Below are positions 12,565 through 30,049 of a stretch of DNA of 32,391 bases, piece after piece (within the stretch, counting starts at the first letter, position 1; every line of letters starts with the position of its first letter). Under the pieces are notes generated by a model, which worked only from the letters and a program-made list of their open reading frames with translations, was not told where the DNA came from and ran no database searches. The stretch comes from Chloroflexota bacterium (GTDB taxonomy: Bacteria; Chloroflexota; Dehalococcoidia; UBA2247; JAUWOP01), in contig JAUWOP010000011.1 in NCBI GenBank assembly GCA_030612045.1, forward strand, positions 1-32,391, read 5' to 3'. A program made the position numbers and the translations under genes.

Positions 12565-14283
12565 CTAGTGAGGCTTCAGCCATGACCACAGGAGGTGTAG
12601 CGGTCTTAGTTTAAGGTATCCCACGGACAGCTCTAGCTCTCTCTTTTCACATACTGTGGACATGCTTGCTTCATCTACTGCTGCCTTCAAGAGTGATAGG
12701 GCGAGAAAGTCAGCATCACTACCCTCGTGGTCAACAATGTCATCAATCTTGTGGAGCAACTCCTGAGCCCCCTCAATACGCTGCTCTACGGCGCGGGAAA
12801 CCCCCTGGGGAATAAGCCCGTATTTTGCCTTTAGGTGATTAAGTCGCAATCCGGCTTCATAGGTGGTAGCGGCAATCTGGTCGCGGTCCATCCACTCCGT
12901 CTCGTAGTTGAGAGTGTGCTTCCAGGTAGGAAGGAGCAGTGCCCGGCGGTGTTCCTCCAGGGTGTGGCAGAAGATGTGGTAGCCGTGCCGTTCGGGCTGC
13001 TCGAAGCCCAGGCTACCGGGGTCAAGAAAGGGAGCCAGGGGAGAGATAAATAATGACAGCCGTCTATCTCCCTTGAATCTCTCCATAAGAGAGCCGCAGT
13101 ATTCAATGGTCTCCATCACTGAACTGTGAGTTTGTTGTGGTAAACCAATCATGAAGAATACATCCAGTCGTCCACAGCCAGCAGAGAGGGCATATTCCAG
13201 GGTTCTCTCCAGTTCTTCATTGGAGTAGTGTTTCCCGTCAGCCCTCCTCACCTCGGGACTGTGGGATTCGGGTGAGAACTCCAGACAGAAGTGAGGGCAG
13301 GATTCTCCCATTCGTTGCAGGAGGTCAGCAGGAGCCGGGTTAAAAAGCTCCATGATGACCTGATTTTTAATCTTCTCTCTCTTAAGCAGCTTCAGGAGGT
13401 TATAGGTATATTCTTCTCCTGGCTGGCGAATGTCTCCCAGGATGAAGACCGGACCTTTGCTAAAGCGGGTAATATCTCTTATCTCATCTATCACAATCCC
13501 TGGGGGACGGAAGGCAGGTGACTCACGCTTACAGATGTGGCGGAAGGCATAGGCTGAACCGCCACAGGTAACGCAATTCTGAGTGCACCCCCGGCAGGTC
13601 AGTGCAGCGGTGATAGGGTACTGTAACCAACCCTTAAAGGGTATGTAACTGGCGAGGTCCCTGTATCGAATTACATCTCGGGGTATGCGTTGGTAGTGAT
13701 GTAGCATAACGGTATCAAGCTCTGTTGGGACATGAGAGAAGGGATTCTCCCTGACATTGCCCTGGGAATCACGCCACAACAGGTTGGGCACCCCTTCCGG
13801 TTCAGCTCCCTTTACTATGCAGTCCATCAACTGTCGCAAGGGCTCCTCCGTAGAATCCCCCCGTAACACATAATCTACCTCTGGATATTGCAATAACTCC
13901 TGGTAGTAATAAGAGGCTGAGATTCCTCCCATGATAATCGGGGTAGAAGGATGGTATTTCTTAACTATACGGGCTATTTCGATAGCGCCGTGGGCATGAG
14001 GCAGCCAGTGGAGGTCAATGCCGAAGACCAGGGGATTAAGGCGCTCAATAGCTCTCTCCACATTAAAGTTTTTGTTCTGCAACATTCTGACAGCCAGGTT
14101 GATGATGCGCACCCGGTAGCCAGCATGTTCCAGGTACTCAGCTATACTGCTAAACCCGATGGGATACATCTCAAAAATAGGGGAGGGGGGCACAAGGTCA
14201 CTGGTGGGACCATACAAGATGGTCCGCCGTCGGAAATCATAGACAGTAGGAGGATGCAATAAAACTAGGTCAGGAGAAGGCAA
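12565..14283 (-). CDS. B12-binding radical SAM protein, Ta0216-like
   Basis: An N-terminal cobalamin-binding-like Rossmann region (residues ~5-155, with PLVFGIDLHWLPHAHG and STPIIMGGISASYY) is followed by a radical SAM domain with the CxxxCxxC motif CTQNCVTC at about residues 233-240, preceded by an extra CRG cysteine. The closest recalled group is the Ta0216 family of B12/radical SAM proteins, of unknown substrate; methylation or rearrangement chemistry is typical of B12 radical SAM enzymes. I start at TTG 14283 (572 aa) because AAAGGAG lies just upstream. A longer TTG start at 14301 would begin inside the adjacent palindromic repeat. The gene is 79 bp downstream of menA and probably co-transcribed. 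Confidence 0.8.
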   Translation of the reverse strand: MPSPDLVLLHPPTVYDFRRRTILYGPTSDLVPPSPIFEMYPIGFSSIAEYLEHAGYRVRIINLAVRMLQNKNFNVERAIERLNPLVFGIDLHWLPHAHGAIEIARIVKKYHPSTPIIMGGISASYYYQELLQYPEVDYVLRGDSTEEPLRQLMDCIVKGAEPEGVPNLLWRDSQGNVRENPFSHVPTELDTVMLHHYQRIPRDVIRYRDLASYIPFKGWLQYPITAALTCRGCTQNCVTCGGSAYAFRHICKRESPAFRPPGIVIDEIRDITRFSKGPVFILGDIRQPGEEYTYNLLKLLKREKIKNQVIMELFNPAPADLLQRMGESCPHFCLEFSPESHSPEVRRADGKHYSNEELERTLEYALSAGCGRLDVFFMIGLPQQTHSSVMETIEYCGSLMERFKGDRRLSLFISPLAPFLDPGSLGFEQPERHGYHIFCHTLEEHRRALLLPTWKHTLNYETEWMDRDQIAATTYEAGLRLNHLKAKYGLIPQGVSRAVEQRIEGAQELLHKIDDIVDHEGSDADFLALSLLKAAVDEASMSTVCEKRELELSVGYLKLRPLHLLWSWLKPH

Positions 14284-14300
14284 GATACTCCTTTCAAACA

Positions 14301-14335
14301 AATCCCCCTAAATCCCCCTTTAGAAAAGGGGGATT
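14301..14335. repeat. G/C-rich palindromic repeat
   Basis: AATCCCCCTTT and AAAGGGGGATT form a perfect 11-bp stem around AGA, preceded by one extra AATCCCCCTA unit. The repeat touches the 5' end of the radical SAM gene. Confidence 0.85.
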
Positions 14336-14362: not shown

Positions 14363-15313
14363 TCAGCCTCCAATCAACCTCTCAATGATAAAACCCAGTG
14401 AGAGGAGGAGCCCGGTCAGCAGGTAGAGTTGGGGAGTGGTGGCATTGGCTGGTGCCAGGGATGGTAAGTTGTCGTAGTGTTTTACTACTATCCGTATGAG
14501 CTTTATTCCCAGTGGTAAGGTAAGAAGCGCCAGCAATGCTAGTGGGGGTGTGCCTACATTAGGGTCAATCCATCCTCCTGCTACACCAAGGATTACAGCA
14601 ATATAGCTAACAATTAATATGAGAGCATACGCTGAGGCTGATTTGGATTTACCCAGAACAACTACCAGATGCCTCTTACCCGCTGTCTTATCTGCTGTGT
14701 AATCGGGTATCTCATTTACCCAGAGTATGGCAATGATGAGAAGGGCTAAAGGAATGGCAGCGATTATCGGCTGCCAGGCAAGTTGTTGAGCCTGGACATA
14801 GTAGGCTCCGAAGGTTACCAGAATGCCACAGTTCAGCCCTACCACGAACTCTCCTGCCCAGCGGTAACCTAGTTTGAAGGGTGGCGCCGTATAGAAATAG
14901 CCTGAGAGGACACCAATGACTCCCAGTATCAGGATGACGGTTCCTCTGGCATAGATAAGATACACTCCTATCAGAGCCGCCAGGATAAAGAAGATAATCC
15001 CTGAATAGAGAACGGTGGAGGGTTTAAGCAACCCCTTTTGTATCATGCGGCTACCGCCAGTGAAGGGAGCGATAAACTCATGGTTAGCCTCATCAGTGCC
15101 ACTCTTATGGTCAAAATAATCGTTGACCAGGTTTGTCCCGCCATTTATCAGCATGACACCTATCAGTGTAGGAACAAAATACTGCCAGTAGAACACCCCT
15201 TCCATTGCCCAGGCGATAGCGGTTCCCAAGATAGCAGGGGTGATGACAGCTATGAAAAAGGGTGCGCGGCAGGCACCAATCCAGAACTGCACACTGTTTT
15301 TGAGCTGTTTCAT
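14363..15313 (-). CDS. menA: 1,4-dihydroxy-2-naphthoate polyprenyltransferase (UbiA family)
   Basis: MenA attaches the isoprenoid tail to dihydroxynaphthoate in menaquinone synthesis. The 316-aa protein has about eight membrane helices and both Asp-rich prenyl-diphosphate/Mg sites: NDYFDHKSGTD (N64 to D74) and DYTADKTAGKRH (D204, D208). The NDYxD form with KSGTD is typical of MenA rather than UbiA or heme O synthase, though other UbiA-type roles cannot be excluded. Menaquinone would be the expected acceptor for the formate dehydrogenase encoded at 18067-22709. ATG at 15313 is preceded by a GGAGGGGAGAAGG stretch. Confidence 0.8.
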   Translation of the reverse strand: MKQLKNSVQFWIGACRAPFFIAVITPAILGTAIAWAMEGVFYWQYFVPTLIGVMLINGGTNLVNDYFDHKSGTDEANHEFIAPFTGGSRMIQKGLLKPSTVLYSGIIFFILAALIGVYLIYARGTVILILGVIGVLSGYFYTAPPFKLGYRWAGEFVVGLNCGILVTFGAYYVQAQQLAWQPIIAAIPLALLIIAILWVNEIPDYTADKTAGKRHLVVVLGKSKSASAYALILIVSYIAVILGVAGGWIDPNVGTPPLALLALLTLPLGIKLIRIVVKHYDNLPSLAPANATTPQLYLLTGLLLSLGFIIERLIGG

Positions 15314-16557: not shown

Positions 16558-16872
16558 ATGGATTTCTTTGGTATAGGCGGATGGGAGCTATTATTAATCC
16601 TCGTTGTTGTTTTTATGATATTTGGTCCCCGCAAGCTGCCTGAGATTGCTCAGAAGATGGGCAAGTTCATGTATAACTTCAAGAAATATAGTACCGACCT
16701 GAACCAGACCATCAAATCAGAAGTGGAAAAGGTTGCCAAGGAGGAGGTCCTTGGTAATCCGGGTAAGCAGCCCTCCTCATCTTCTAGCTCAGCTAAGTCT
16801 CCTGCAAGTAATCCCCCAGTTGCGCCTGTGGCAGCAGCAGATGCGGGTAACCCTGAAGGAAAAGTTGAATGA
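16558..16872 (+). CDS. tatB: Sec-independent protein translocase TatB
   Basis: A 104-aa TatA/B-family protein. The N-terminal helix GGWELLLILVVVFMIFGPRK and the FGPRKLPEIAQKMGK motif favour TatB (the substrate-receiving partner of TatC) over TatA. A long amphipathic segment with SEVEKVAKEE follows, and a Ser/Pro/Ala-rich tail. The ATG is preceded by GGGAGAGAAG. It is separated from the tatA genes by a repeat-rich gap of nearly 500 bp and from tatC by about 290 bp with another repeat. TatB versus TatA assignment is moderately secure. Confidence 0.8.
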   Translation: MDFFGIGGWELLLILVVVFMIFGPRKLPEIAQKMGKFMYNFKKYSTDLNQTIKSEVEKVAKEEVLGNPGKQPSSSSSSAKSPASNPPVAPVAAADAGNPEGKVE

Positions 16873-17164: not shown

Positions 17165-17935
17165 TTGGTTGGGAAGTTGCCAGAAGAAAAGACCATTACT
17201 CTACTCAGTCATCTCGGGGAGCTGCGGCGGCGACTGATTATCTCGCTGATTGCCGTGGCAGTTACTACCAGCGCCTCCTTTTGCCTCATCTACTATAAGG
17301 TGGTTGATGTGTTTGGCTTCCTCATCTCACGCGCCGAGGGCATTGACCTCATCTACACCGAGCTGACAGGGATGATTAGCGCCTATTGCAAGGTATCAGT
17401 CATGTGTGGCGTGATGCTGGCACTGCCTATAATTATCTACGAGATTGTAATGTTCATCCGCCCCGCCCTGCTTCCCAGGGAGAAGAGGTATCTCTATTCT
17501 CTATTGCCTGGGGTGATGTTATCCTTTGCTGCCGGTGTCGCCTTCGGTTTTTATGTGTTACTTCCCCCTGCAATGAAGTTCCTCATTACCTTTGGCGCTG
17601 ATGTTGCCCTTCCTATGATTACAGTGGGGAACTATGTCTCTATAGTGACCCGTCTCCTCTTCGCCATTGGTTTATGTTTTGAATTGCCCCTTCTCTGCTA
17701 CTTCCTCACCAAGATAGGGGTGGTTACTCCGGATAAACTTGCCAAATATCGGAAGATAGCTATTGTGGTCGCCTTTATCCTGGGGGCTATTATCACGCCC
17801 ACCTTTGACCCTATTAATCAGAGCATGGTAGCCCTGCCTCTTATTGTCCTATATGAGGTGGGCATCATTCTGTCAAAGGTCGCCATGTCCTCCAAGAAGG
17901 CAACTTATCCTGAAGAGGTAGGCAGTGAAGTTTGA
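17165..17935 (+). CDS. tatC: Sec-independent protein translocase TatC
   Basis: TatC is the six-helix core of the Tat translocase that recognises twin-arginine signals. The 256-aa product shows the N-terminal LLSHLGELRRRLI, the first periplasmic-loop segment with FIRPALLPREKRY, and the later GVVTPDKLAKYRKIAIV and ITPTFDPINQ motifs. The start is uncertain: TTG at 17165 has no clear ribosome site, and TTG at 17177 is a shorter alternative. A promoter for the formate dehydrogenase genes overlaps its stop codon. The next gene encodes a protein with a Tat signal, a likely substrate. Confidence 0.92.
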   Translation: MVGKLPEEKTITLLSHLGELRRRLIISLIAVAVTTSASFCLIYYKVVDVFGFLISRAEGIDLIYTELTGMISAYCKVSVMCGVMLALPIIIYEIVMFIRPALLPREKRYLYSLLPGVMLSFAAGVAFGFYVLLPPAMKFLITFGADVALPMITVGNYVSIVTRLLFAIGLCFELPLLCYFLTKIGVVTPDKLAKYRKIAIVVAFILGAIITPTFDPINQSMVALPLIVLYEVGIILSKVAMSSKKATYPEEVGSEV

Positions 17936-18066: not shown

Positions 18067-21000
18067 ATGGAGCTAAGTCGGCGGGGATTCCTTAAGCTGT
18101 CCGGCGGCACTATGGGGGCAGCTATAATCCTCCCCCAACTGGGCTGGGGGAAGGGTATCCTGGATGTCAAAGCCAGTTCGCCAATCAGCTTGCACAAGAG
18201 GATTGGTGAGACCACTACCATATGTCCTTACTGCGGTGTAGGTTGTGGTTTTATTGCGGCTTCTGGTGACAATGAGATTATCAATATTGAGGGTGACCCT
18301 GACCATCCCATTAACCAGGGTTCTGCCTGTAGCAAGGGCTCGGCCCTGGCACAGATTCGGACGGTGAATGGGAAGGATAATCCGTGGCGATTGACCAAGC
18401 CTCTCTATCGCAGAGGTGGGGGGACAGAGTGGGAGGAGGTAGAGTGGGATTGGACTATTGATGCCATAGCCACCAAAATTAAGGATACCAGGGATAGCAA
18501 GTGGGTGGAAAAAGATGGCAGCGGTAAGACAGTCAACCGCTGTGAGTCAATTGCCTGCTTTGGTGGTGCGGCGCTGGATAATGAGGAGTGTTATCTGTTA
18601 TCCAAGATGGCTCGCTCCCTGGGGATAGTGTATCTGGAACACTGTGCCCGTATATGACATTCCGCTACAGTTGCGGCTCTGGCAGAGTCGTTCGGTAGGG
18701 GAGCAATGACCAATCACTGGATTGACCTCAAGAATACTGATTGCGCCATGATTATCGGCAGTAATGCTGCCGAGAATCACCCTATGTCATTCAAGTGGCT
18801 TACTAAAGCAAAGGAAGAGAAGGGGGCGAAGATTGTCAATGTTGACCCTCGCTTTACTCGCACCTCTTCCAAGTCTGATATTTATGCCCCCATAAGGTCA
18901 GGTACCGATATTGCCTTCATTGGGGGGATGATTAAATGGGTGCTTGATGATATGACAGCAAATCCTGGTAACTATAATATGGACTATGTGAAGCAGTATA
19001 CCAATGCTGCTCTTATTATCAATGATAGTTATAAAGGTCCTGATGATGCCAGTCATCCCGGGTTGTTTGAGGGATATACTCCCTCTACCACTAGTGCTCC
19101 AGGAAATTTAGGCTCTTATAATAAGACCACCTGGGGATATGCTAACACAACTACACCTAATGTAGATACTACTCTGGAGAATCCTAATTGTGTATTTCAG
19201 TTGCTGAAGGCTCATTATTCTATCTATACAACCGATAAAGTCAGTCAGATTACAGGGTGTCTTACGAGCAAACTAGAAGAGGTATACAGGACTTATGCTG
19301 CCACAGGTAATAAGGGCAAGGCAGGCACTATCCTGTATGCTATGGGCACCACCCAGCATACCTACGGCACCCAGAACATTCGTTCCTATGCCATTCTCCA
19401 GCTCCTGCTGGCAAATATGGGTATCGCTGGTGGGGGTATTAATGCCCTGCGTGGTGAATCTAATGTGCAGGGTTCCACTGATATGTGCCTCCTGAGCCAT
19501 ATTCTGCCAGGGTACCTTAAGGTGCCTAATGAGACGGATACCGATATTGATGCTTATCTTGGTCGGGTTGAGCCAGCAACTGTTACTCCTGCTGGACTTG
19601 ACGGTGACAAGAGCGCTAACTGGTGGGGGAATGGGCATTATAAACAGTATATGGTTAGCCTGCTCAAGGCATTCTACGGCGATAATGCTACCACTCCAGA
19701 GTTTGGTTTCAACTATCTGCCCAAGGCTGATTCCAAGACAAACTATACTCATATAGGTTTGTTTGAGAAGTTGAATGAGGGTACTACCATCAAGGGGATG
19801 ATGTGCTGGGGGCAAAACCCCGCTGTAGCTGGTCCCGATTGCGGTGGTGAACGCAATGCTCTGGAGAAGCTTGACTGGCTGATGTGCATTGACCTGTGGG
19901 AGACGGAGACCGCCGCTTTCTGGAAGAGACCGGGGGCTAACCCTGCCTCAATAGATACCGAGGTCTTTCTCCTGCCGGCAGCAGCCTCTTTTGAGAAGGA
20001 GGGTAGCATCTCCAACAGCGGACGCTGGGTGCAGTGGCGCTACAAGGCGATTGACCCTCCCGGAGATGCCAGACCAGACCTCCGTGTTATGGATGAGCTT
20101 ATGCTCAAGCTGAAAGAGAAATATAGCGGGCAAACTGCCCACAATGCTGATGCCATCAACAAACTGGCATGGAACTACCACATCAGTGGAGAGTATGCTG
20201 ACCACGCCGACCCCAATGTGGTGGCTAAGGAAGTCAATGGCTATAATATGTCTACAGGTGTGCCCCTAACGAGTTTCGGGAATCTCAAGGATGACGGCAC
20301 TACCTGCTCCGGTAACTGGATATACTGTGGGATGTTTGATGCCGATGATAACAACAAGGCAAAGAGGCATGACCCGGTAGACCGGAGTATCAACCAGATT
20401 GGACTGTATTCCGACTGGACCTGGTGCTGGCCGATAAACCGCCGCATCATCTACAACCGAGCCTCGGTTGACCTTAATGGTGTTCCCTGGGATAAGGGGC
20501 AGCCTGTTATCTGGTGGGAATACGATGGTCCAAGCACAAAATGGGCGGGGGATATCCCCGATGGTGGCTGGGCACCTATAAATGTAGCTGCTGCGGGCTC
20601 AAAGTATCTCCCCTTCATCATGAAGCCTGAGGGGGTGGCTCATATATGGGGCTTCGGGCGAACGGATGGTCCTGTTCCTGAGGCATATGAGCCGTGGGAA
20701 AGCCCCATGGAGGAGACTATAAGGGGTGTCCTCAAGGCTAAGGGTGGTGAAGGATTCAATGACCCCTGCTGCTATGTGGGTAAACTTGAAAAAGATGGTG
20801 AGAGCCAAAATGAGCACGGTTCATTTAGCGACTTTCCTTGCGTGGGTACGACCTACCGGGTAACCGAGCACTGGCAGTCAGGTCCGATGACCCGTAATCT
20901 CCCATGGCTGGTAGAGTTAATGCCTGATGTGTTTGTGGAGTTGGGTGAAGACCTGGCAAGTGAGAAGGGCATCAACAGGGGTGATAAGGTTAAGGTAACT

Positions 21001-21234
21001 ACAGCACGAGGCTCAATTGAAGCGGTGGCGGTGGTTACCAGGAGACTCCACCGCATGACTATAGGGTTGAATGGCACTCAAAGGCAAATTGACCATGTGG
21101 GTATACTGTGGCACTGGGGTTACATCGGGCTTTCTAAGGGCGACAGCGCCAATATCCTTACCCCTCATGTGGGAGATGCCAATACCACTATACCAGAATA
21201 TAAGACCTTCCTGTGCAAGATAGAGAAGGCTTAG
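18067..21234 (+). CDS. fdnG: Formate dehydrogenase catalytic subunit, selenocysteine- and Mo/W-dependent, Tat-exported
   Basis: One 1055-residue reading frame is interrupted only by TGA at 18655-18657, in-frame on both sides. The TGA sits in ARI-(TGA)-HSATVAALAESFGRG, exactly where E. coli FdnG and FdhF have catalytic selenocysteine, with the conserved His next to it. So I read it as Sec197. The N-terminus has a Tat signal (SRRGFLKLSG at 4-13). A [4Fe-4S] site follows: C53, C56, C60 and C88. The enzyme oxidises formate to CO2 using a bis-pterin Mo or W centre. fdnH and fdnI follow, so it is the exported FDH-N type. A short stem-loop just after the TGA could be the SECIS. ATG 18067 has AAGGGAGGG upstream. 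Selenocysteine machinery is not in the window. Confidence 0.93.
18671..18685 (+). promoter_or_regulatory. Possible bacterial SECIS stem-loop
   Basis: About 14 nt after the TGA, TTGC/GGCTCTG/GCAG can form a small stem (TGC with GCA plus a G-U pair) with a GG-and-U-containing loop, at the distance expected for SelB-binding hairpins. The fold is weak by eye; assignment is inference from position. Confidence 0.35.
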
Positions 21235-21247
21235 AAAGGAAGAGACT

Positions 21248-22057
21248 ATGACTGAAAAGGCACTGCTTATAGATGTCAGTAAATGTACGGGGTGCCGTGC
21301 TTGTCAGGTAGCCTGTAAGGAGTGGAATGGTCTTCCTGCCGTGGAGACTACCTGCACAGGAACATACGAGAATCCCCCTGACCTCTCACCTGATACCTGG
21401 AACAAGATTAAATTCACAGAAATTGGCTCAACCTCAGACGGAACGATGCGATGGCTCTTCAGGTCGGAGCGCTGTTTGCACTGCACCGATGCCTCCTGCG
21501 TGGAGGTCTGTCCTACAGGGGCAGTTTATCATCACGAGTTGGGCTTCGTGGCTTATGACAGAACTAAGTGTACCGGGTGTGGCTATTGCACTCAGTACTG
21601 CCCCTTTAATATTCCCCAATTGAGTGGGAATAAGCTGACCGGTATGCAGAAAATGGATAAGTGCACCTTCTGTTTGGACCGTGTCGCTAACGGACTGGAG
21701 CCAGCATGTTCCAAGGCTTGCCCTACCGGAGCAATAAGCTTTGGTAACCGCGGTGACTTGATATTAAAGGGAAGCAGCCGTGTAAATGACCTTAAGTCAA
21801 ACGGTTACTCTAATGCCTATCTCTATGGTGAGCATGAGTTGGGGGGACTGCATACTATGTATGTCCTTGATGAGAAGCCAGAGGTTTATGGCCTGCCAGC
21901 GGACCCCCAGTATGTACCAGGTTACGAGGTAGTGCGGCAGGATATCCTCAAACCTTTAGGTTGGGCGCTGATTGCTGCCGCAGCAGGAGGATTCGCCTTG
22001 AACTTCCTGGTGTCTCGCTCCCGGATGGTAAAGGCTGGTAAGAAGGAGGAGGAGTAG
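21248..22057 (+). CDS. fdnH: Formate dehydrogenase iron-sulfur (beta) subunit
   Basis: The 269-aa protein passes electrons from FdnG to the cytochrome b subunit. Four cysteine clusters for [4Fe-4S] centres are visible: CTGCRACQVAC near residues 13-23, CLHCTDASCVEVCP, CTGCGYCTQYCP, and CTFCLDRVANG with CSKACP. A single C-terminal membrane helix (WALIAAAAGGFALNFLV) anchors it, as in E. coli FdnH. It lies 13 bp after fdnG, with GGAAGAG upstream of the ATG, and 1 bp before fdnI. Confidence 0.93.
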   Translation: MTEKALLIDVSKCTGCRACQVACKEWNGLPAVETTCTGTYENPPDLSPDTWNKIKFTEIGSTSDGTMRWLFRSERCLHCTDASCVEVCPTGAVYHHELGFVAYDRTKCTGCGYCTQYCPFNIPQLSGNKLTGMQKMDKCTFCLDRVANGLEPACSKACPTGAISFGNRGDLILKGSSRVNDLKSNGYSNAYLYGEHELGGLHTMYVLDEKPEVYGLPADPQYVPGYEVVRQDILKPLGWALIAAAAGGFALNFLVSRSRMVKAGKKEEE

Positions 22058-22058
22058 T

Positions 22059-22709
22059 ATGGAAGAGATAGAACGGTTTAGACTATCCACTCGAGTGCTC
22101 CATTGGGCAATAGTAATATTTACTTGCCTGCTGGGTGCTTCAGGGCTGTGTATCTATATCTCTCAAATAGGTGGTTGGGTAGGGCAGGGGGGATATGTCG
22201 GATATATCCACCGTGTATGCGCTATTCTCTTCGTTCTCTCAGCCGTGATTTACCTGGTAACTAACTTCAAGAGTTCGATAAAATTCCTCAAGGAAGCCTT
22301 CGTCTGGGGATTGTCTGATTTGGGCTGGGCATTGGCGGCTCCTGATTACTACTTTGGTGGCGACCCGGAGAAGATGCCGCCGCAGGAGCATATCAATACT
22401 GGTCAGAAGCTTTACTGGCTGGCAGTGATAATAGGTGTTGTGGTGTTTCTGGTCACCGGGATACTCATGTGGGCGTTTAGGGATATCGTCTCGGAGAGTG
22501 TCTTCATGTGGAGCCTTCTGATTCATGATGTGGCTTTCATTGGTGCTATGGTCATGGTTGCCCTTCACCTCTACCTGGGGTCTATACACCCGGTAATGAC
22601 AGAATCCCTGAAGTCCATGGTAACAGGGAAGGCATCAATAGAGTATTGCGAGCACCATCATGGCAGGTGGCTACGCCATGAGCTGAAGAAGAAGGAATCT
22701 GAAAGCTAG
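22059..22709 (+). CDS. fdnI: Formate dehydrogenase cytochrome b (gamma) subunit
   Basis: A 216-aa four-helix membrane cytochrome that passes electrons to quinone. Histidines H15, H51, H156 and H170 lie at the positions and spacing of the four heme-b ligands of E. coli FdnI, so two b hemes are expected. The opening RLSTRVLHWAIV is typical. It starts one base after the fdnH stop and ends just before a strong terminator. Menaquinone is the probable acceptor, since menA is encoded nearby. Confidence 0.9.
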   Translation: MEEIERFRLSTRVLHWAIVIFTCLLGASGLCIYISQIGGWVGQGGYVGYIHRVCAILFVLSAVIYLVTNFKSSIKFLKEAFVWGLSDLGWALAAPDYYFGGDPEKMPPQEHINTGQKLYWLAVIIGVVVFLVTGILMWAFRDIVSESVFMWSLLIHDVAFIGAMVMVALHLYLGSIHPVMTESLKSMVTGKASIEYCEHHHGRWLRHELKKKESES

Positions 22710-22747: not shown

Positions 22748-22780
22748 GAGCGGGGGACAAGCCCCCGCTCATCTTTTTCT
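22748..22780 (+). terminator. Rho-independent terminator of the fdh operon
   Basis: GAGCGGGGG and CCCCCGCTC form a 9-bp stem with loop ACAAG, followed by ATCTTTTTCT. It lies about 40 bp after fdnI. Confidence 0.9.
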
Positions 22781-23022: not shown

Positions 23023-23058
23023 GTGGGTGAACATTTACTTTATAAGAAAGAAGGAGTA

Positions 23059-23907
23059 ATGCTCTCCTTAGAGGACAAGTTCTTACAGCGGTTACAAGAG
23101 CTAGTAATGCGGGGGGATGATTTCTCCCGCGTTGCGGAATTTTATCAGCAGGTAGCGCCTCTTCAGGTTGAGGCAAAGTCCCGTCTGGAACTGAAGCGCC
23201 CGCCGACCAGTAGTGCTATTAAAAAGAAGCTGGAAGCAGACAAAGCTCAGGTTACCTTCGAGGGATTAGCTATAGATTGGCTGGTGGTGAGGGATTTATT
23301 CTCCAGGATGTTACATCTCCTCGCTGATTATAAGATAGTTGACGATGCTCAGTTGGGAAAGCTGAAGGAGTTAGCCCCTGACCCCGCTCTCCTCAAGCGA
23401 GCCGCGCGGAAGTGGTATAAGCAGCCCGTGGTAGAGTGCAGTAATTCAGTGGAAGTAGCGATTGCTATAGCACTGCGATTGACCTTCCTGCCATGTCTGG
23501 TCAAGCATTCCGAAGCAATAATGAGCATGTTTGACCAGGAGCGGTGGCGGCGCAGCAGTTGTCCCATCTGTGGCGGAAAGGCTGACTTCGCTTTCTTGAA
23601 CAAGGAGAATGGGGCTCGTTGGCTGGTATGCTGGCGCTGTGATACCCAGTGGCTGTTTCAACGGCTGGTCTGCCCCTATTGTGGTAATGATGACCAGAAG
23701 TCCCTGGCGTACTTCACTGATGATAACAATCTCTACAGGTTATATGTCTGTGATGTATGTCACTCTTACCTTAAGTGTATTGATTTGCGCCAGACAGAGG
23801 AGGAGATACTCTTTCCCCTGGAACGTATCCTCACGGTTGGTCAGGATAGTCAGATACAGGAGAAGGGCTATAAGCCCGGATGGATAGCTAGCACTCCTGA
23901 TAGATAA
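23059..23907 (+). CDS. fdhE: Formate dehydrogenase accessory protein FdhE
   Basis: FdhE is a cytoplasmic metal-binding protein needed to make active exported formate dehydrogenase. Four CxxC pairs are visible in the C-terminal half: CPIC, CWRC, CPYC and CDVC, spaced as in the FdhE rubredoxin-like domains, with NKENGARWLVC and LYVCDVCHSYLKCID as family context. I use ATG at 23059 (282 aa), next to AAGAAGGAG; a GTG at 23023 would add 12 residues not like the family. It lies beyond the fdh terminator and a repeat, so it may have its own promoter. Confidence 0.88.
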   Translation: MLSLEDKFLQRLQELVMRGDDFSRVAEFYQQVAPLQVEAKSRLELKRPPTSSAIKKKLEADKAQVTFEGLAIDWLVVRDLFSRMLHLLADYKIVDDAQLGKLKELAPDPALLKRAARKWYKQPVVECSNSVEVAIAIALRLTFLPCLVKHSEAIMSMFDQERWRRSSCPICGGKADFAFLNKENGARWLVCWRCDTQWLFQRLVCPYCGNDDQKSLAYFTDDNNLYRLYVCDVCHSYLKCIDLRQTEEEILFPLERILTVGQDSQIQEKGYKPGWIASTPDR

Positions 23908-28176: not shown

Positions 28177-28638
28177 ATGAAAGTAGCATTGCTTTGTGAT
28201 GTAGACGGTCTGGGTAAATTGGGTGAGGTGAAGGAGGTGGCAGATGGCTACGGGAGAAATTTCCTTTTGCCCCGTAAGATGGCTTCGCTGGCTACCCCAT
28301 CTGTACTAAAACATGTACAGGCACAAGTTCAAAAGGAGGTAAAGAGGCAACAGCTGATTGCTGCTGAATTCAAAAGGCAGGCTCAGGAGTTAGAGGGTCT
28401 TACCCTTACTTTCAGAGCAAAAAAGGCTTCAGATGAGCGCATCTTTGGCTCGATCCGGGATGTACACATCGCACAGGAAATCCACCATCTCATTGGCTTC
28501 GACCTGGAGAAAGGAAACGTGGTACTCGAAGAGCCTCTTAATCAAATAGGAACTCATAAGGTGACAATAAGGCTTCGTAAGGATCTAACACCTACAGTAC
28601 TGGTTATTATACAGGGGGAAGATAGTTCCAGTGAATAA
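28177..28638 (+). CDS. rplI: 50S ribosomal protein L9
   Basis: A 153-aa bL9. The N-terminal domain is typical: [20 protein letters not shown], then [16 protein letters not shown], followed by the long central helix ([20 protein letters not shown]) and the C-terminal domain with [22 protein letters not shown] lies upstream. Its stop overlaps the dnaB start by 8 bp, a standard rplI-dnaB pairing. Confidence 0.95.
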
Positions 28639-30049
28639 TGAAAAACTGCCCCCTCATAACATAGATGCTGAGGAAGCAGTGCTTGGTTCTTTATTTATTG
28701 ACCCTGATGTGGTCAATGATGTAGTCCTGTTATTGAAACCAGGGGATTTCTATGATGAGAGGAACCTATGGACATATGAGGCATGTCTTTCTCTCTACGA
28801 GCGGAATGAGGCAATAAACCAGGTAACTGTAGCTCAGGAACTGGTGCATCGGAACAGGCTGGAAGAGATTGGAACGGGATATCTGAGTCACCTGGTGAGT
28901 TCATGCCCTACCTCAGTTCATGCAGAGTATTATGCCCAGATTGTGCATCGCCTAGCGGTAATGCGGCGGCTTATCACCTCAGCAGAACAGATTGCTGTTA
29001 TGGCGTATGAATCTGACCCTGATGCTGATGCTGTGTTGAGCAAAGCAGAGGATATACTGTTTCACTTGCACCATGGCGAGACAACTCGTGACTTTGTCCA
29101 CATTCGTCAGGTGCTGGAGCAATACTTTGAGGAAACTGAGGGTGCTGCCTTCTCAGAAGGGCATCCTCCTCATGTATTTACCAGCTTTGGTGCCCTAGAT
29201 GAGCTGCTTGGTGGTCTGCAACGTTCAGACATGTTCATCCTGGCAGCCAGACCTAGTATGGGGAAGTCGAGTCTGGCACTCAACATTGCCAGAAATGCTG
29301 CAATAGACCAGGGCTCTCATGTAGCCTTCTTTAGCCTGGAAATGTCGAAGGAGCAACTGGTGCAGCGCCTTATTGCCTCAGAGGCCAGGGTAGATTCCAA
29401 GCACATTCGTCTCCATACTTTTACCGAAGATGAGGAAAGGCGTATCATGGAAGCAAGTGGCATTCTGTCTGAGGCACCAATTTTTATCGATGATAGTCCT
29501 TTACTGAAGGTGATGGAGATGCGGGGGAAGGTGCGGCGGCTTTACTATGACCAGGGGGTTGACCTCATCATTGTGGACTACTTACAGTTGATTCGTGGTG
29601 ATAGTGCTAAACCAGAGAACAGGGTTCAAGAGACAAGCGAAATCTCACGTTCACTCAAAGCTCTTGCCAGGGAATTGGATGTACCTCTAATCGCTGTATC
29701 CCAGCTAAGCCGTGCGGTAGAGTTGCGTACACCTCACATCCCTCAACTCTCCGACCTCAGGGAAAGTGGCAGCATCGAACAGGATGCCGATGTAGTAGCA
29801 TTTATCTATCGGGATGATGTCTATTATACGCCTGAAGAATGGGAGGCGAAACACCCGGATGTTCCTTATCCTAAAGGAATGGCTAATATAATTATCGCTA
29901 AACACCGTAATGGACCCACGGGTCAGGTTGACCTGCGATTTCGGCGAGAAATAGCAAAATTTGAGACTCTGGAAAGAATAGGTTCTGAAGGTGAACAGCA
30001 AACCCTTCCCAGGATTTCCCACCAGGGCACATTTTACTCCCGTGCCTGA
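28631..30049 (+). CDS. dnaB: Replicative DNA helicase DnaB
   Basis: A 472-aa hexameric 5'-3' helicase for the replication fork. The N-terminal domain begins [18 protein letters not shown]. The RecA-type motor has Walker A at ~205-213 ([10 protein letters not shown]), Walker B in [10 protein letters not shown], and the later [15 protein letters not shown]. No intein is present. It starts with GTG overlapping rplI and its last 59 bp overlap the start of the DnaD-domain gene. Confidence 0.95.

Follow-up and report, generated by a model that had tools for sequence, protein, structure and literature searches.

The fdnGHI genes found in the window, by which we mean the whole stretch of 32,391 nucleotides that was analysed, most probably encode a selenocysteine (Sec)-containing respiratory formate dehydrogenase-N of an uncultivated member of Dehalococcoidia, a reading to which we give a probability of about 93%. 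At its center lies the observation that fdnG is a single frame with a TGA at the catalytic Sec position; the genes for the beta and gamma subunits adjoin it (Table 1). On this reading the organism probably respires formate and not organohalides.

How continuous is the frame of fdnG? The TGA at codon 197 is the sole internal stop among its 1055 codons. When the two sides are joined, the product gives 1147 bits to TIGR01553 (formate dehydrogenase-N alpha; cut-off 814.2) over residues 3-1054, has domains for the binding of molybdopterin, Fe4S4 and a dinucleotide, and can be aligned over its whole length with Sec formate dehydrogenases of known structure, E. coli FdnG (1KQF) among them. In a direct alignment to E. 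coli FdnG, 45.6% of the aligned positions are identical, Sec196 corresponds to residue 197, and C53, C56, C60, C88, K90, H198 and R462 are all matched. The residues that matter in Fdh-N are the Fe-S cysteines, a lysine near the cluster and the cofactor, the histidine after Sec, and an active-site arginine. Homologues have Sec at the position of the TGA in most cases, or Cys in two of them (L050 and L057), and the product starts with the twin-arginine signal MELSRRGFLK. The original prediction had placed the TGA at the catalytic Sec position with family sequence on both sides, which the alignments bear out. It had also foreseen a split into pieces of 196 and 842 amino acids, and a mechanical ORF scan returns exactly these (18067-18657 and 18706-21234); the further damage to the frame that it had named as an objection is absent. 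A plain gene caller would thus split fdnG, and reading the TGA as Sec corrects such an annotation. As a separate matter, genome-wide recoding of UGA was considered and rejected, because TGA serves as a normal stop elsewhere in the window, for example at 17165-17935, 14363-15313 and 28631-30049.

Table 1. Features of the window that bear on the formate dehydrogenase genes
Feature	Position	Strand	Remarks
menA-like prenyltransferase (menaquinone synthesis)	14363-15313	-	TIGR00751, 103.3 bits (cut-off 102.15)
tatA-like protein, Tat export	16558-16872	+	
tatC, Tat export	17165-17935	+	
fdnG, formate dehydrogenase-N alpha subunit	18067-21234	+	1055 aa; Sec at residue 197; N-terminal twin-arginine signal
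In-frame TGA read as selenocysteine	18655-18657	+	aligned with E. coli FdnG Sec196
SECIS-like hairpin	18660-18703	+	apical stem 18673-18691; GGC triloop 18681-18683
fdnH, Fe-S beta subunit	21248-22057	+	17 of 17 E. coli FdnH Cys aligned with Cys
fdnI, cytochrome b gamma subunit	22059-22709	+	PF01292; E. coli FdnI H18, H155 and H169 aligned
Terminator-like hairpin 3' of fdnI	22748-22770	+	consensus match only
fdhE-like accessory protein (FdhE_central)	23023-23907	+	below TIGR01562 cut-off

A Sec codon in bacteria is expected to be followed by a SECIS, and the original prediction proposed to fold the RNA after 18657 for one. A SECIS-like hairpin is indeed there. The 56 nucleotides counted from the TGA fold with -21.8 kcal/mol, and comparison with dinucleotide-shuffled sequences gives z = -2.84. 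The apical stem has 8 base pairs, and the GGC triloop lies 23 nucleotides after the UGA; the hairpin agrees with the published bacterial SECIS (bSECIS) model as far as this is quoted in PMC13188914. Comparison of the window with Rfam, which may or may not hold a bacterial SECIS family, gave no match. Telling Sec from Cys genes by folding energy was also tried and rejected, since Cys homologues fold about as well and the energies overlap.

The apical stem is unusual in another respect. Among 18 FdnGs from Chloroflexota, Nitrospirota and Thermodesulfobacteriota, whose mutual amino-acid identity is 46-99%, codons +6 to +8, +10 and +11 after Sec are identical in all 18 (GCG GCT CTG ... GAG TCG), and codon +12 is TTC in 17. 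Elsewhere, at 176 conserved positions with degenerate codons, the most frequent codon has a mean share of 0.63, and no more than about 1% of these positions show the same degree of fixation. In these 18 homologues the two strands of the apical stem are both frozen, while loop bases 2 and 3 vary. In an alignment of 17 SECIS sequences, likewise, the apical stem never varies, and covariation of the outer pairs does not exceed that of shuffles. The stem has the same nucleotide sequence in different phyla, to a degree that neither base pairing nor the protein would require. The 23-nucleotide pattern taken from the window (18673-18695) occurs in 24 copies in 21 of 393 genomes of the class (L079-L102), and every copy belongs to an fdnG and starts 18 nucleotides downstream of the T of the TGA codon in the AR[IL]UH motif; the reversed pattern, used as a control, does not occur in these 393 genomes. 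Other Sec FdnGs, including those of E. coli and of a genus that we call g70, have a different and variable loop (GCCAGTTTGGC, GCCGGTCTGGC and similar). The frozen kind is clustered in the FdnG tree, with three changes, and both kinds of SECIS co-occur in some genomes (G009, G010 and G012), so that presumably the same SelB reads both. It may be imagined that the frozen kind constitutes a distinct, sequence-fixed class of SECIS, in which the sequence of the stem, GCGGCUCU-Gnn-AGAGUCGUUCGG, is itself recognized by SelB or a different factor, and not only the loop G and the shape. Such recognition would explain why both strands are frozen across phyla while loop bases 2 and 3 and the surrounding codons drift, though we regard the idea as tentative and would sooner doubt it than accept it. 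A text search of the literature for the stem motif gave one match, which was unrelated. In any case, the codon-frozen stem offers a simple test case for SelB recognition of bacterial SECIS.

Does the organism have the means to insert Sec? The genome that was searched (G000) measures 1.62 Mb in 85 contigs and is 97% complete. It contains a tRNA-Sec with anticodon UCA (69.7 bits, C8:539-632), selB (357 bits, C37:7062-8927), selA adjoining selB in divergent orientation (556 bits), and selD (387 bits, contig C41; L017:1077-2126, + strand). Thus the selenocysteine system that the original prediction expected elsewhere in the genome is present in all four components, and together with the alignments and the hairpin this supports its interpretation overall. 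fdhD is found in the genome as well. selD itself has one in-frame TGA, in GSGUACK, and SelD is predicted to be a second selenoprotein of this genome; the hairpin after this TGA has a GGG triloop and as a whole folds no better than shuffles.

FdnH is 42% identical to the E. coli beta subunit and FdnI 29% to the gamma subunit over aligned residues; H57 of E. coli FdnI, one of the four heme ligands, is unaligned. The best matches of the two proteins are FDH-beta, formate-DH-gamma and chains B and C of 1KQF, though neither protein reaches its NCBIfam equivalog cut-off. The tatA-like and tatC genes upstream fit the twin-arginine signal of FdnG, and the menA-like gene suggests menaquinone as the probable electron acceptor of FdnGHI. 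Sec, the Fe-S beta subunit, cytochrome b, the Tat genes and the menA-like gene together make oxidation of formate at the outward-facing side of the membrane, with electrons passed to menaquinone, the best reading of the sequence; that the UGA is translated, that the enzyme is active and works in this direction, and that a quinone takes up the electrons are what we infer from it. According to this reading, SelA and SelD would make Sec on tRNA-Sec(UCA), and SelB would bind the hairpin just after the UGA and deliver Sec there. FdhD, probably with the FdhE-like protein, would help the alpha subunit to receive its molybdopterin cofactor, and the Tat machinery would export the alpha subunit together with FdnH. 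Formate would then be oxidized outside the membrane, and electrons would flow through the clusters of FdnH and the hemes of FdnI to menaquinone. In the same window, a B12-binding radical SAM protein is encoded at 12565-14301 on the minus strand (TIGR04190, 666 bits; cut-off 500).

E. coli and close relatives in cultivation were already known to have a Sec FdnG with its machinery, so that the arrangement is an ordinary one; these published precedents reduce the surprise. FdnGHI of E. coli K-12 (1KQF) resembles the system of the window in subunit order, in the aligned catalytic Sec and Fe-S cysteines, and in the SECIS-type hairpin after the UGA, while it differs in the sequence of the SECIS and in H57 of FdnI. 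Dehalogenimonas belongs to the same class and has a Sec FdnG, a complete fdn operon and Sec machinery, selCDAB being present in all analysed genomes (PMC13390414); for D. alkenigignens, selC and selenocysteine genes were described, as was a formate dehydrogenase that contains a UGA and has a putative SECIS (PMC4918011). The genomes that we take as Dehalogenimonas (g70) have TGA at the same codon and 54-56% identity in FdnG, but the apical stem of their SECIS is of the other kind, and Dehalogenimonas respires organohalides, whereas the genome studied here is without a reductive dehalogenase match. A predicted Sec formate dehydrogenase-N alpha, FdnI_2, is also known from the single cell Dsc4 of uncultivated deep-sea Chloroflexi (PMC5736913), the likeness being drawn from its description, and Sec formate dehydrogenases were noted in Chloroflexi of the Okinawa Trough (PMC4959059).

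Relatives of FdnG, 41-61% identical to it in their best segment, are found in Chloroflexota, Nitrospirota, Thermodesulfobacteriota, Bacillota and Actinomycetota. With few exceptions they have TGA at the catalytic codon, the same codon across many independent assemblies, and in a search of 60 genomes the full-length matches to FdnG mostly have exactly one TGA. Among Fdn-type homologues the exceptions are L050, L057 and a partial copy in L043, which have Cys, and L060, which has Ser. Ser occurs in three genomes of genus g24 (single contigs, 1.4-1.5 Mb) and Sec in four genomes of g70, the second genus of the same family; that g24 represents Dehalococcoides and g70 Dehalogenimonas is judged from the family and the dehalogenases. 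A tree made by a quick maximum-likelihood method places the Ser and Cys rows inside the Sec rows and groups the Ser row with Sec enzymes of Dehalococcoidia in a starred set, a placement of moderate weight. Sec is the usual state of FdnG in the class and, given this nesting, probably the older one, with Ser derived. OmeA of Dehalococcoides, an FdnG-like CISM protein, is a homologous alpha subunit of 46-49% identity; it has Ser for Sec, is inactive with formate and lacks a cytochrome b subunit, and the Ser has been discussed as the likely cause of the inactivity (PMC5736913). The original prediction contrasted the TGA with the serine of cultivated Dehalococcoides. The serine is indeed present in Dehalococcoides-like genomes, as also published (PMC5736913), but the contrast was overstated, as Sec is common in the class and Ser is the exception. 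Dehalococcoides would rather have a Ser enzyme that arose within a Sec family found widely in its class. The likely active formate oxidizer that the prediction envisaged is consistent with the sequence.

Could the TGA have come from faulty sequencing or assembly, or could a Cys codon have recently mutated to a stop and left a pseudogene? The window is a contig of a draft genome, and Cys homologues do exist (L050 and L057). However, TGA at the same codon is seen in dozens of independent assemblies, the remainder of the fdnG frame is intact, no component of the sel system is missing, and the codons that follow the TGA are constrained at the nucleotide level. We find this explanation hardly credible, since the sharing of the TGA codon among homologues in many independent assemblies excludes chance or error.

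Granting a Sec enzyme, its role has still to be weighed. Formate oxidation is favoured in an outer-face Fdh-N with a quinone partner, and the Tat signal, the membrane-anchored beta subunit and cytochrome b point to just this orientation and partner. They argue against an enzyme that works mainly in reverse, as a CO2 reductase feeding formate to the Wood-Ljungdahl pathway, and that alternative seems to us very improbable, even though related deep-sea Chloroflexi are described as homoacetogens with several formate dehydrogenases, some of them with Sec (PMC5736913). The complex might instead be an OmeA-like relay that passes electrons from a hydrogenase to reductive dehalogenases and is not a formate dehydrogenase; OmeA comes from the same class, and the Sec FDH-N of Dehalogenimonas was proposed to do both (PMC13390414). 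An OmeA-type system would combine catalytic Ser with reductive dehalogenases in the genome. Here the active site has Sec, cytochrome b completes the FdnGHI set, and the genome gave no match to PF13486, while a control genome of g24 (G027) gave 27, so that a relay of this sort is very improbable. With the control working, the lack of a reductive dehalogenase match also makes it unlikely that FdnGHI serves organohalide respiration. Respiratory oxidation of formate thus continues to be the preferred reading.

Some minor observations were made along the way. At L002:1501-1591 (+ strand; G000:C45:26979-27069) lies a tRNA with the Cys anticodon GCA and a tRNA-Sec-like build, which gives 54.9 bits to the tRNA-Sec of Rfam and has a long variable arm and U before CCA. 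It was considered as a second tRNA-Sec and rejected because of its Cys anticodon. Its neighbours on either side are YedF-type genes of selenium metabolism, and it was the only GCA tRNA that a pattern search of the genome found. It resembles selC* tRNA-Cys, for which a review gives Firmicutes, Thermodesulfobacteria, Nitrospirae and Proteobacteria as sources, Chloroflexi not being among them (PMC7609411). In L043 (Desulfobacteraceae bacterium UBA5623), TGA- and TGC-containing pieces of FdnG stand side by side on one contig and adjoin a run of N, so that they may perhaps be mis-joined. Finally, two Dehalogenimonas-like genomes, G152 and G132 (L129 and L130), have, in addition, an FdnG-like gene of some 1005 amino acids that lacks a TGA.
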